From Bacteroidota bacterium (lineage in GTDB: Bacteria; Bacteroidota; Bacteroidia; Chitinophagales; JADIYW01), in the NCBI GenBank assembly GCA_963169645.1, contig CAUJCO010000014.1, positions 67,001 through 131,000 of the forward strand: 64,000 bases of DNA. The letters run 5' to 3'. Below the pieces are notes generated by a model that did no database searches, was not told the DNA's origin, and saw nothing but the letters and a program-made list of their open reading frames with translations. Shown here piece after piece: positions 34,327 through 38,510 of this stretch (the first letter of the stretch is position 1; every line of letters starts with the position of its first letter). Position numbers and translations under genes: made by a program.

Positions 34327-35682
34327 ATGCCAAAGATTTTAATTGTAGATGACGAAAAAGCAATACGCAGAACATTAAAAGAAATATTAGAATACGAAAA
34401 ATACGACATCGATGAAGCAGAAGACGGAGAAGCCGGTTTGCAGAAGATGGAAAAAAACAACTACGATGTTGTAATATTAGATGTGAAAATGCCCAAAAAA
34501 GATGGCATTGAAGTATTGACAGAAATGCAACAAAAAGGCATAGATATGCCGGTCATTGTACTATCCGGGCACGGAAATATTGAAACCGCTGTGGAAGCAG
34601 TAAAAAAAGGTGCATTTGATTTTATTCCAAAACCACCGGATTTAAACCGCTTGCTAATTACGGTTCGCAATGCGATGGATAAGGTTTCGTTGGTTACAGA
34701 AACTAAAATATTAAAAAAGAAAATTGCAAAATCGAAAGATATTGTTGGCGACTCCAATCCGATTGTAAAAATTAAAGAAACCATTGCAAAAGTTGCCCCC
34801 ACGGAAGCCCGTGTTCTCATCACCGGCGACAATGGCTCCGGAAAAGAATTGGTAGCACGTTGGCTACACGAACAGAGCAACCGAGCAAGTGGTCCTTTAG
34901 TAGAAGTAAATTGTGCCGCCATTCCATCTGAGTTGATAGAAAGCGAACTTTTTGGACATGAAAAAGGTGCTTTTACATCGGCCATCAAACAACGTGTTGG
35001 GAAATTTGAACAAGCCAACGGTGGAACACTTTTCTTAGATGAAATTGGCGACATGAGCTTGTCAGCTCAAGCAAAAGTATTACGTGCATTACAAGAAAAT
35101 AAAATTACTAAAGTAGGTGGCGATAAAGAAGAAAAAGTAGATGTACGTGTGGTAGCGGCAACCAATAAAGATTTATTGAAAGAAGTAGAAGAAAACCGTT
35201 TCCGCATGGACTTGTATCATCGTTTAAGCGTGATTCTTATTCATGTGCCATCTTTAAATCAACGAAAAGATGATATTCCGGTATTGACAGAGCATTTCTT
35301 AAACGAAATTTGTGGCGACTATGGCATACCTGTAAAAAAAATTGAAAAAGATGCAATCGAAACATTGCAAGCACGTAACTGGACAGGCAATATTCGCGAA
35401 CTGAGAAATGTGGTAGAACGCTTGGTTATTATGAGTGAAAAAACAATTACTAAACAAGATGTAATTGATTATTCCGGACCGAGCGGCAAAGCAGAAAATA
35501 ATGGAATAGACTTTGATAAGTTTGCCAATTTACAACAACTGAACGATTATGTTGAGCGGAGTTACATTGAAAACAAACTAAATAAAAACGATTGGAACAC
35601 TTCCAAAACTGCGGATGATATTGGCATCAGCAAAAAAGCATTGGAAGAAAAAATGGAAAGTTTAGGATTGAAGAAGCGATAA
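34327..35682 (+). CDS. Sigma-54-dependent NtrC-family response regulator
   Basis: A 451-residue three-domain regulator. The receiver domain has phosphorylation site Asp52 (ILDVKMPKKDG) with acidic pair DDE (8-10). The AAA+ domain has Walker A GDNGSGKE (167-174), the sigma-54 contact loop GAFTSA (214-219; the usual form is GAFTGA), and Walker B LFLDE (235-239). A C-terminal helix-turn-helix follows (TSKTADDIGISKKALEEKME). It activates sigma-54 promoters when phosphorylated by a histidine kinase, which is not adjacent. The last codons (LKKR stop) are part of the tandem repeat that begins here: the sequence TGAAGAAGCGATAA recurs in downstream units. Confidence 0.95.
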   Translation: MPKILIVDDEKAIRRTLKEILEYEKYDIDEAEDGEAGLQKMEKNNYDVVILDVKMPKKDGIEVLTEMQQKGIDMPVIVLSGHGNIETAVEAVKKGAFDFIPKPPDLNRLLITVRNAMDKVSLVTETKILKKKIAKSKDIVGDSNPIVKIKETIAKVAPTEARVLITGDNGSGKELVARWLHEQSNRASGPLVEVNCAAIPSELIESELFGHEKGAFTSAIKQRVGKFEQANGGTLFLDEIGDMSLSAQAKVLRALQENKITKVGGDKEEKVDVRVVAATNKDLLKEVEENRFRMDLYHRLSVILIHVPSLNQRKDDIPVLTEHFLNEICGDYGIPVKKIEKDAIETLQARNWTGNIRELRNVVERLVIMSEKTITKQDVIDYSGPSGKAENNGIDFDKFANLQQLNDYVERSYIENKLNKNDWNTSKTADDIGISKKALEEKMESLGLKKR

Positions 35683-36157
35683 TACGACTTTGTCCTATTG
35701 AGCGAAGCGAAACAACTTTTGTATTGCTTGCACTTGCGCAAGAATATTACAAAAACATTCCGCGTTTCACAGTTCAAAAGATTCTTCGCTACGCTCAGAA
35801 TGACCTACCGCAATAGTTCGTGTCCTCACGAACCAATAAAATAAATCAAGAAGCGATAATACGACTTTGTCCTATTGAGCGAAGCGAAACAACTTTTGTA
35901 TTGCTTGCACTTGCGCAAGAATAATACAAAAACATTTCGCGTTTCACAGTTCAAAAGATTCTTCGCTACGCTCAGAATGACCTACCGCAATGGTTTGTGT
36001 CTTCACGAACCAATAAAATAAATCAAGAAGCGATAATACGACTTTGTCCTATTGAGCGAAGCGAAACAACTTTTGTATTGCTTGCACTTGCGCAAGAATA
36101 ATAAAAAACGTTTCACGTTTCATAGTTCAGAAGATTCTTCGCTTCGCTCAGAATGAC
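35670..36157. repeat. Tandem 177-bp repeats, left block (three units)
   Basis: Units start at 35671, 35848 and 36025 (period 177). Each has a left arm TCCTATTGAGCGAAGCGAAA and a right arm GATTCTTCGCTACGCTCAGA; these are imperfect inverted copies about 90 bp apart. Between them is a hairpin-prone stretch (CTTGC with GCAAG), and after the right arm lies a hairpin such as GTTCGTG TCCT CACGAAC. The third unit stops just after its right arm, 2 nt from the stop codon of the GIY-YIG gene. The first unit overlaps the last codons of the response regulator. Confidence 0.9.
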
Positions 36158-36158
36158 T

Positions 36159-36455
36159 TCAAAAATAAAAATTCATATTCAAAGTATGCCATTTAGGATT
36201 CATCGTTGCAATTAATTCTTCTTTGCGTGTTCTTGTCCAGCCTTTTAATTCCTTTTCTCTATCAATTGCATATCTAATGTCTCTAAACTCTTCAAAATAA
36301 ATTAATTTATGACAATAGTATCTGCCTGTAAAACTCTTGTTTGTTCCTTTATTTGCTCTGTGTTCATCCAATCTTCTTCTAAGGTTATTTGTAACACCAA
36401 CATACAAAACTGATTTTCCTGGATTTGTTAAAATATATACATAATAGACTTTCAC
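36159..36455 (-). CDS. GIY-YIG nuclease family protein
   Basis: A 98-residue protein consisting of one GIY-YIG domain. The motif reads YVYI (5-8) and YVG (18-20), the catalytic arginine falls in NLRRRLDEH (Arg27 region), and the metal-binding glutamate is in DREKELKGW (about Glu67-69). This is the short UvrC/URI-like class common in Bacteroidota, with no DNA-binding domain. Its substrate is unknown. The gene sits inside the tandem repeat array: its stop codon is 2 nt from the right arm of the left block, and the right block resumes 75 nt upstream of its start. Its insertion replaces the inter-arm spacer of one unit exactly, which suggests that it moves with, or acts on, the repeat arms (inference). 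Confidence 0.88.
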   Translation of the reverse strand: MKVYYVYILTNPGKSVLYVGVTNNLRRRLDEHRANKGTNKSFTGRYYCHKLIYFEEFRDIRYAIDREKELKGWTRTRKEELIATMNPKWHTLNMNFYF

Positions 36456-36530
36456 AATAAATGCTTTTATCTATTAAGAGACATAAACTGCCGAAATTCC
36501 ATAAAAAAATAGTATTTTATATTTACCAAC

Positions 36531-37556
36531 GTGTCCTATTGAGCGAAGCGAAACAACTTTTGTATTGCTTGCACTTGCGCAAGAATAATACAAAAACATT
36601 TCGCGTTTCATAGTTCAAAAGATTCTTCGTTACGCTCAGAATGACCTACCGCAATAGTTCGTGTCCTCACAAACTATTAAAATAAATGAAGAAGCGATAA
36701 TACGACTTTGTCCTGTAGAGCGAAGCGAAACAACCTTTTTATTGCTTGCACTTGCGCAAGAATAATACAAAACGTTTCGCGTTTCATAGTTCAAAAGATT
36801 CTTCGCTACGCTCAGAATGACCTATCGCAATTGTTCGTGTCCTCACAAACCAATAAAATAAATGAAGAAGCGATAAAACGACTTTGTCCTGTTGAGCGAA
36901 GCGAAACAACTTTTGTATTGCTTGCACTTGAGCAAGAATAATACAAAACGTTTCGTGTTTCATAGTTTAAAAGATTCTTCGCTACGCTCAGAATGACTTA
37001 CAGCAATAGTTTGTGTCCTCACAAAACAATAAAATAAATGAAGAAGCGATAATACGACATTGTCCTGTAGAGCGAAGCTAAACAACTTTTGTATTGCTTG
37101 CACTTGCGCAAGAATAATACAAAACGTTTCGCGTTTCATAGTTCAAAAGATTCTTCGCTACGCTCAGAATGACTTATCGCAATGGTTCGTGTCCTCACAA
37201 ACCAATAAAATAAATGAAGAAGCGATAAAACGACTTTGTCCTGTTGAGTGAAGCGAAACAACTTTTGTATTGCTTGCACTTAAGCAAGAATAATACAAAA
37301 CGTTTCGCGTTTCATAGTTCAAAAGATTCTTCGCTACGCTCAGAATGACTTACCGCAATGGTTTGTGTCTTCACAAACCAATAAAATAAATGAAGAAGCG
37401 ATAATACGACTTTGTCCTGTAGAGCGAAGCGAAACAACTTTTGTATTCCTTGCACTTGCGCAAGAATAATACAAAACGTTTCGCTTTTCATAGTTCAAAA
37501 GATTCTTCGCTACGCTCAGAATGACTTACCGCAATAGTTTGTGTCCTCACAAACCA
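36531..37556. repeat. Tandem 176-bp repeats, right block (six units)
   Basis: The first unit enters at its left arm (TCCTATTGAG, 36533). Later units start at 36689, 36865, 37041, 37217 and 37393, an exact 176-bp period. Odd and even units differ consistently: 36689, 37041 and 37393 have CCTGTAGAG and CTTGCGCAAG, while 36865 and 37217 have AAAACGAC, CCTGTTGAG and CTTGAGCAAG or CTTAAGCAAG. This shows amplification of a 352-bp dimer. No coding function is likely, because 176 is not a multiple of three. Confidence 0.9.
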
Positions 37557-37595: not shown

Positions 37596-38510
37596 TTAAA
37601 CCGAAAAGATGTTGCCTTCAATGGCTAATGCTGTGTTTTCGAAAACTGTTTTAGCTTCCTCTTCCAATTCTGATAAATGATAATAGCGCGACGAAAAATG
37701 GCCTAAAATTAATTTTTGAACTTTAGCTTTCTTGGCAATCTGTGCTGCTTGTAATGCGGTTGTATGCATGGTTTCTTTTGCACGCACTTTATCTTGGTGC
37801 AGAAAAGTTGCCTCGTGATACAATAAATTTGCATTTTTTATGTATTGCACTATTTGCACATCGTACACCGTATCCGAACAATATGCATACGAACGTGTCG
37901 GCTTTCCTTTCTGTGTAACCCAACTATTTTTTATTTTTTTCCCGTTCACATCTAACACATCTTCGCCATCTATCAAAAATTTATATTGTGTTTTGTCGAT
38001 TTGAAATTGTTGGATTTTTTCCAAATCCAATTTTCGTTGTATGGTTTTAGATGTAATTAAGAAACCGGTAGTTGGTATTCTATGATTGAGCGGAAATGAA
38101 TATACAGTACATTCCGGAATATCCAAGATGCAATACTTGTCATCCGTTTGCGTAGCAATAAATTTTAAATCAAAATTTAGAGTGGTGTTGGATACTTTGA
38201 GTTGCTGTTGAATTATTTTTTTTAATTCTTTCGGTGCAAAAATGGTCAGCTTATTTTTGCGCTTCAACAAATTAAAGGTGGTTAAAAGTCCAATTAATCC
38301 AAAATAATGATCGCCGTGTAAATGAGAAATAAAAATGTAATCAATCTTAAACCATTTCACTTTATTTTCATGCATTCGTTCTTGTGTACCTTCGCCACAA
38401 TCTATTAAGAAATGTTGATTTTGGATTTGAACAAATTGTGCCGATGGATGTCTTCCATGATTAAAAATAGCAGAGTTACTGCCTAATATGGTAATTTGGA
38501 AATCAGTCAT
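37596..38510 (-). CDS. rnz: Ribonuclease Z
   Basis: A 304-residue metallo-beta-lactamase-fold endonuclease that trims tRNA 3' ends. It has the N-terminal ILGSNSAIFNHGRHPSAQ, FLIDCGEGTQERM, the zinc motif FISHLHGDHYFGL, the AYCSDT motif, the downstream HEATFLHQ and the final HFSSRYY. These are the tRNase Z short-form markers. Cytosolic. It starts 62 nt after the STAS gene on the same strand and shares the region with an 8-bp inverted repeat. The 3' end abuts the tandem repeat block. Confidence 0.95.
   Translation of the reverse strand: MTDFQITILGSNSAIFNHGRHPSAQFVQIQNQHFLIDCGEGTQERMHENKVKWFKIDYIFISHLHGDHYFGLIGLLTTFNLLKRKNKLTIFAPKELKKIIQQQLKVSNTTLNFDLKFIATQTDDKYCILDIPECTVYSFPLNHRIPTTGFLITSKTIQRKLDLEKIQQFQIDKTQYKFLIDGEDVLDVNGKKIKNSWVTQKGKPTRSYAYCSDTVYDVQIVQYIKNANLLYHEATFLHQDKVRAKETMHTTALQAAQIAKKAKVQKLILGHFSSRYYHLSELEEEAKTVFENTALAIEGNIFSV

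Follow-up and report, generated by a model that had tools for sequence, protein, structure and literature searches.

Small GIY-YIG nuclease genes flanked by CGTC/TGTC-tagged hairpin repeats: a likely REP/RAYT-like partnership

Why should a gene for a small nuclease lie, almost to the base, at an arm boundary within a tandem array of inverted repeats? The question is raised by a 64,000-nucleotide stretch of a Bacteroidota bacterium contig (hereafter the window), in which a GIY-YIG nuclease gene encoding 98 aa from a GTG start (36159..36455, minus strand; PF01541 match of 63.8 bits, cut-off 22.6) is found inside a repeat array that spans 35692-37556. A sequence-only reading of this locus had likened the arrangement to REP elements and their RAYT transposases, with the alternative that the gene is a passenger. 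Its placement of the gene at an arm boundary inside a tandem inverted-repeat array held within a few bases: only 1 nt, where 2 nt had been given, separates the end of the left block's right arm (36157) from the stop codon (36159-36161), and the right block's left arm, which begins at 36533, lies 77 nt, not 75, upstream of the GTG start. Its claim that the gene replaces the segment joining one right arm to the next left arm also held, in that a 375-bp gene segment (36158-36532) stands between units 3 and 4 where the normal 64-bp linker would be. Two points required correction; the exact fit is partly a product of local tandem duplication, and the arm type it named (TCATTCTGAGCGAAGCGAAG) is one type within a YGTC-tagged hairpin superfamily.

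The array contains nine inverted-arm dimers of 112-113 bp each, located between 35692 and 37525 with a period of 176-177 bp, three to the left of the GIY-YIG gene and six to its right. All nine are inverted arm pairs arranged head-to-head with their tags outward. By repeat mapping unit 1 (left arm GTCCTATTGAGCGAAGCGAAACAAC, right arm GATTCTTCGCTACGCTCAGAATGAC) occupies 35692..35804 on the plus strand, followed on the same strand by units 2 (35869..35981) and 3 (36046..36157), and then, beyond the gene, by units 4 (36533..36645, the first one to its right), 5 (36710..36821), 6 (36886..36997), 7 (37062..37173), 8 (37238..37349) and 9 (37414..37525). The left arms are of the type GTCCT(A/G)T(T/A)GAGCGAAGCGAAACAAC and the right arms are GATTCTTCGCTACGCTCAGAATGAC, except that in unit 3, which abuts the gene, the right arm and the inner right half are slightly unlike those of the other units (CGCTTCGCTC). 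Read on the minus strand the right arms are (A)GTCATTCTGAG; the left arms have TGTCC and are degenerate, with CT...AA at the first stem positions and broken pairs. Units 5-9 (36710-37525) come in two alternating forms (TAGAG or TTGAG left arm), a 352-bp higher-order tandem repeat.

The 64-bp linkers (representative copy 35805..35868; further copies 35982-36045, 36646-36709 etc.) are made of native intergenic DNA, found too in the relative G003, and of GAAGAAGCGATAA, the last codons of the upstream ntrC-like response-regulator gene (34327..35682, plus strand), whose 3' end belongs to the duplicated unit and was multiplied together with the dimer. Since the linkers carry this gene end and native intergenic DNA, the array arose from one dimer locus by tandem duplication. 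Nine independent arm insertions were considered and rejected, as the 176-bp repeat unit includes the gene end. The right-arm pattern, searched with up to two mismatches through the 2.7-Mb genome, has nine copies in the array and one elsewhere and gave 0 in a reversed control, and such near confinement to the array means that the arms there are not a chance occurrence. The one arm outside the array is a degenerate solo copy (L012, 1501-1520; G000:C14:31397) that adjoins an apparent tRNA-Leu gene. With one gene, one tandemly duplicated array and decayed left arms, the unit in this genome may be quiescent, perhaps dormant. On the other flank of the array is an RNase Z-like gene (37596..38510, minus strand), and in the relative G006 the ntrC-like and RNase Z-like genes adjoin each other without an intervening array. 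At the same junction in G003 (L138, about 820-1376) the place of the array is taken, as judged by eye, by a MazEF-like toxin-antitoxin pair, and the junction could be a recurrent insertion spot.

Do the arms form hairpins? The window arm class, ATTCT-GA-GC-GNA-GC-GA-AGAAT, can be drawn with outer pairs (5 bp), tandem G.A, two G-C pairs and a GNA triloop with a free middle base. As general background, DNA gains particular stability from tandem G.A and from GNA loops. ViennaRNA gives this class only a weak folding energy (about -2 kcal/mol, z near 0); energy-only folding is uninformative, and the hairpin case rests on covariation. Among 88 distinct arms, outer pair 3 varies among C-G, T-A and G-C, inner pair 8 varies among G-C, A-T and C-G, and double changes greatly exceed those in shuffles. 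In 32 hand-picked representative arms (A3) the covariation score was 0.529 as against 0.185 when shuffled, and slid structures reached at most 0.127.

These repeats belong with the CGTC-tagged REP superfamily, as a structural variant of its stem. That superfamily, as surveyed in PMC3733652 (Di Nocera 2013), includes Neisseria dRS3, Rickettsia RPE-4/RPE-6 and alphaproteobacterial REPs, and the likenesses are a C/TGTC tag left unpaired, AT at the start of the stem, a head-to-head dimer arrangement (all nine units in the window) and dispersed intergenic copies. The unpaired terminal tag is present, and [CT]GTCAT is the dominant flanking motif across homologues of the nuclease gene; A-T pairs at the first two stem positions are present in the window right arms and most homologues but absent from the window left arms. 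The stem is where the two differ: the superfamily has a continuous stem of 8-9 bp with a 4-5 nt loop, which is present in the Neisseria, Azospirillum and relative G002/G011 arms, whereas the window arms have instead the G.A-interrupted stem and GNA triloop. A second difference concerns the enzyme. The survey reported CGTC repeats to be unassociated with transposase genes and apparently without a dedicated transposase, and it found no CGTC repeat flanking a tyrosine transposase; here a GIY-YIG gene is associated, and Neisseria and Azospirillum lipoferum, both covered by that survey, have such hairpins around GIY-YIG genes.

The association was measured with 93 homologues from at least ten phyla, 79 of them from GTDB contigs (373 confirmed places, up to 6 kb each side) and 14 from a plasmid collection, some records of which are chromosomes. 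The motif [CT]GTCAT is found within 150 bp of the gene in 87/93 and on both sides in 71/93; the values are 22.5% and 1.9% for control windows, and 33% and 3.7% for control ORFs (at least 80 aa, same loci). Outward from the gene edge the tag counts per 100 bp are 182, 132, 67 and 30, then about 18. In an unbiased hexamer scan of the same 150 bp TGTCAT ranks first (74/93 loci vs 95/987 control windows, p about 5e-57). Such p-values assume independent loci, which is untrue here (27 loci are from Hymenobacter), and the phylum spread and genus-level counts, with the tag in 55 of 59 groups and on both sides in 41, are the safer statement. The first arm test used window-class arms (TCATNNTGAGCGNAGCGAAGNA, lightly degenerate), of which there were 72 in the 47 kb within 300 bp of the gene and 25 in the remaining 797 kb, about a 48-fold difference in density; 47 of 147 gaps beside the gene had such arms, as against 11 of 352 other gaps in the same loci. 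Many homologues without window-class arms have other hairpins bearing the same tag, and in a hairpin scan the YGTC-type tag was 15-fold enriched near the gene whereas four control tags were 0-1-fold. Thus neither of the outcomes that the sequence-only reading had named as refuting a link, homologues consistently lacking nearby arms or arms equally common beside unrelated genes, was observed.

Searches for exact arms in the window's own order and family gave few matches because the stem sequence is lineage-specific, and an apparent refutation by this scarcity was dropped once the tag rather than the arm was searched. The closest same-genus homologue (L013, 61% identity) has imperfect TGTCAT hairpins only. 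N. gonorrhoeae has eight dRS3-type hairpins within 400 bp of its GIY-YIG gene, and CGTC hairpins flank the gene in Sinorhizobium, Rhizobium, Neorhizobium, Shinella, Azospirillum and Aeromonas. Among the six exceptions that lack [CT]GTCAT, both sides are occupied by CGTCGC and CGTCAC hairpins in L156 and L159, and CCTCATTCC forms can be made out by eye in L153 and L162; CCTC is a tag variant noted in PMC3733652. Arm similarity and protein similarity are correlated between genera (Spearman 0.36, 0/500 permutations), also in pairs more than 10% apart in G+C, the pattern that joint movement or joint evolution of gene and arms would produce. In one locus, L161 on Planktothrix agardhii plasmid p1, the GIY-YIG gene with TGTCATTCTGAGTGAAACGAAGAATC arms lies inside a DISARM/MmeI defence island.

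Repeats that flank an enzyme gene and are also dispersed genome-wide are a feature of REPtrons, and both are present in relatives. Exact window-class arms have 5-202 dispersed copies in 15/17 genomes searched (reversed control 0), all 17 of which have GIY-YIG genes, one to five per genome. The 28 GIY-YIG loci of these genomes all have a tag within 300 bp, 26/28 on both sides, and 16/28 have a GAGCG-type arm. HUH/Y1 transposase loci (PF01797) were examined in 11 genomes, the window's own and ten of the 17; of 15 such loci 4 have any tag within 300 bp, and over the same distance 0/15 have a GAGCG-type arm and 0/15 have tags on both sides. The PF01797 match can be shorter than the gene, and part of the 300 bp may be coding.

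In the protein itself the active-site positions Y7, Y18, G20, R28, H32, E67 and N86 are all retained, and among 46 homologues Y18, G20, R28, H32, E67 and N86 are invariant and Y7 is conserved in at least 90%; the catalytic Tyr, Arg, Glu and Asn that characterize the GIY-YIG domain superfamily (PF01541) are thus present. This conservation fits a selected, active nuclease, an activity that is inferred here from sequence alone. Single-sequence structure prediction was poor, and we used instead an alignment-based AlphaFold model (pLDDT 93.9) whose alignment comprised the window protein and the proteins of the GTDB-contig loci, those of the plasmid collection being left out. The best PDB fold matches of this predicted structure are UPF0213 1zg2 and then Slx1, a nuclease of branched DNA. 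By family, then, the enzyme is an ordinary GIY-YIG protein; the pairing with repeats, and its breadth, appear to be new. The same genome has a second small GIY-YIG gene (G000:C9:91952-92203; L236, about 1500-1790) with no YGTC arms close by. It adjoins a tRNA-Arg gene, a copy of whose 3' end (GTGAACCTGAAGGGAGTC) lies on the other side of the GIY-YIG gene, and it may be a tRNA-targeted freestanding GIY-YIG element.

Two arrangements dominate among homologue loci when classified by immediate neighbours, the gene inside a dimer (+ gene -, 33 loci) and the gene between two dimers (+- gene +-, 21 loci, the window being of this kind). Empty sites lacking both gene and arms, which the earlier reading had proposed to look for, were found in G006 (above) and in Azospirillum and Sphingobium relatives. 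In A. lipoferum a dimer-gene-dimer unit lies between sufB and sufC and is absent from three relatives with 94% similar flanks, and Shinella PSBB067 has, independently, an arm-gene-arm unit in the same spacer. The arms that accompany the GIY-YIG genes in these two spacers (L154, L158) differ in sequence between Azospirillum and Shinella. Related Sphingobium plasmids differ at the fnrL spacer, which is occupied in some strains but vacant in others, and strains TYG64 and TYG74 (L229, L230) retain only CGTCACCCCGGGTCAAGCCCGGGGTGACG-like palindromes there. This solo palindrome is the outer halves of both arms fused, as would result from deletion between the arms (ACCCCGGG repeats) of the filled allele or its precursor. 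Empty-site joints are too diverged for exact mapping, and no exact joint was resolved.

Some dimers are centred on palindromes. Perfect inverted flanks of 8 bp or more surround 14 of 140 distinct dimers, where 1.3 were expected and the maximum in 200 shuffles was 5; the 14 include a few loci fetched twice. In L034, from Hymenobacter sp. BT18, the dimer fills the loop of AAAAAACGCC...GGCGTTTTTT, and the orthologous place in most other Hymenobacter compared is, by eye, a plain terminator-like hairpin. CGTC dimers of H. neapolitanus are likewise placed at palindromes (PMC3733652). Outside the outermost arms no direct target-site duplications were evident by eye, and a subset has inverted flanks.

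We consider the most likely explanation to be that the YGTC-tagged hairpin arms together with the GIY-YIG gene make up a single selfish REP/RAYT-like (REPtron-like) unit, with the action of the enzyme on the repeats being inferred. In this unit an Slx1-fold GIY-YIG nuclease would stand in place of the HUH tyrosine transposase, the arms would be its cognate DNA elements, and the gene-less dimers would be its non-autonomous, REPIN-like derivatives. The arm may extrude as a hairpin with the YGTC tag unpaired at its 5' side, the nuclease would nick at the tag or at the hairpin base, a matching cut at another hairpin or cruciform (e.g. a terminator tip) would open the target, and host repair or replication would then fill the break with a copy of the segment bounded by arms, whether or not this includes the gene. 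The association, the covariation, the conserved active-site residues, the arm-protein co-variation, the presence/absence polymorphism, the dispersed copies and the palindrome-centred dimers are shown; hairpin recognition or binding, cutting, target opening and copying are inferred. The partnership of gene and repeats is therefore strongly supported by sequence, and we think it likely, with hairpin cutting and mobilisation remaining inferences; the REP/RAYT-like link of the sequence-only reading is upheld to the same extent, as an association. Several points tell against the proposal. There is no biochemistry, and a hydrolytic GIY-YIG enzyme, unlike a RAYT, cannot itself carry out strand transfer; since GIY-YIG hydrolysis proceeds without a covalent intermediate, joining cannot take place as it does with RAYTs. 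In addition, the arms in the window's genome are confined to one array, and its second small GIY-YIG gene has none. The degenerate left arms, the merely imperfect hairpins of L013, the weak folding energy of the window arm class, the want of a resolved target-site duplication or exact joint and the non-independence of related loci also weigh against it.

Comparison with known systems places the unit near several of them. It resembles REP/REPIN-RAYT systems (REPtrons; TnpA-REP of the IS200/IS605 HUH group) in having one or few enzyme genes flanked by inverted hairpin repeats, many gene-less dimers elsewhere, and arms and enzyme that vary together, and differs in that the enzyme is GIY-YIG with hydrolytic chemistry rather than HUH/Y1 and the tag is [CT]GTC (YGTC) rather than GTAG. 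Thus it probably works like REP-RAYT but is no member, both the HUH enzyme and the GTAG tag being absent. With UPF0213-type small GIY-YIG proteins and Slx1 it has in common the fold and the conserved residues of the active site (1zg2 and Slx1-Slx4 being the closest solved structures), whereas for those proteins no published repeat link was found in the literature searched, and Slx1 works with Slx4 and has an extra domain. Like freestanding GIY-YIG homing endonucleases (phage Seg-type) it is a small stand-alone gene inserting in spacers; unlike them it is bounded by its own hairpin repeats, gene-less copies of which are dispersed in the genome. The literature searched contained no report of a link between GIY-YIG proteins and REPs, and as preprints and most subscription papers were outside its scope, earlier notice is possible.

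Three other explanations deserve consideration. The gene could be a passenger in a safe haven, that is, small freestanding homing-type GIY-YIG genes might survive preferentially in REP-rich intergenic spacers with no functional link to the repeats. In its favor, array and gene are intergenic, and arms also occur far from GIY-YIG genes (of the order-wide exact-arm sites outside the array, only L109 has one within the locus). Against it, arms crowd both flanks of the gene and thin out steeply with distance, few of the other intergenic gaps in those loci contain any, the stem sequence is lineage-specific yet the tag is constant, arm and protein similarity correlate, and in Azospirillum and Shinella gene and arms lie inside the suf operon, an unlikely haven. 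We therefore regard this alternative, which the earlier reading had left standing, as unlikely. Similarly improbable is that the arms are not mobile and serve as terminators, in mRNA stability or as target marks for a host-defence or repair nuclease. Palindromes at gene ends are often terminators and several dimers do lie inside terminators, but up to 202 dispersed copies occur where a genome has just one to three genes, close relatives have empty sites, and a variable stem with a fixed unpaired tag is no terminator signature. Finally, that an HUH tyrosine transposase (RAYT) moves these repeats as in classical REPs while the GIY-YIG gene hitch-hikes, for which it can be said that CGTC repeats resemble GTAG REPs in structure and that RAYTs or other transposases were suggested in PMC3733652, is very unlikely and was rejected, since no PF01797 protein was matched in the arm-rich genomes G300, G307 and G312 (43, 202 and 63 exact arms, respectively), none of the 15 Y1 loci has a GAGCG-type arm within 300 bp of the matched part, and that same survey found no CGTC repeat beside a tyrosine transposase.

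A bolder reading of the REP/RAYT-like unit, against which we lean slightly at present, is that a hydrolytic, Slx1-like GIY-YIG nuclease is the dedicated spreader of CGTC/TGTC-tagged palindromes throughout bacteria, cutting hairpin or cruciform tips while host repair does the joining; the tagged arms would be the donor, and palindromes such as terminators the target. Few short bacterial repeats are as widespread as the CGTC/TGTC-tagged palindromes, Neisseria dRS3 among them, and their mover was left open by PMC3733652. A GIY-YIG gene flanked by its cognate repeats in at least ten phyla is a concrete candidate for the missing partner. If the enzyme does cut its own hairpins, REP-type selfish repeats would have arisen around two unrelated nuclease folds and thousands of genes annotated 'GIY-YIG nuclease family protein' would gain a role, and if the bolder reading is true DNA would have a way to move that needs neither transposase nor integrase.
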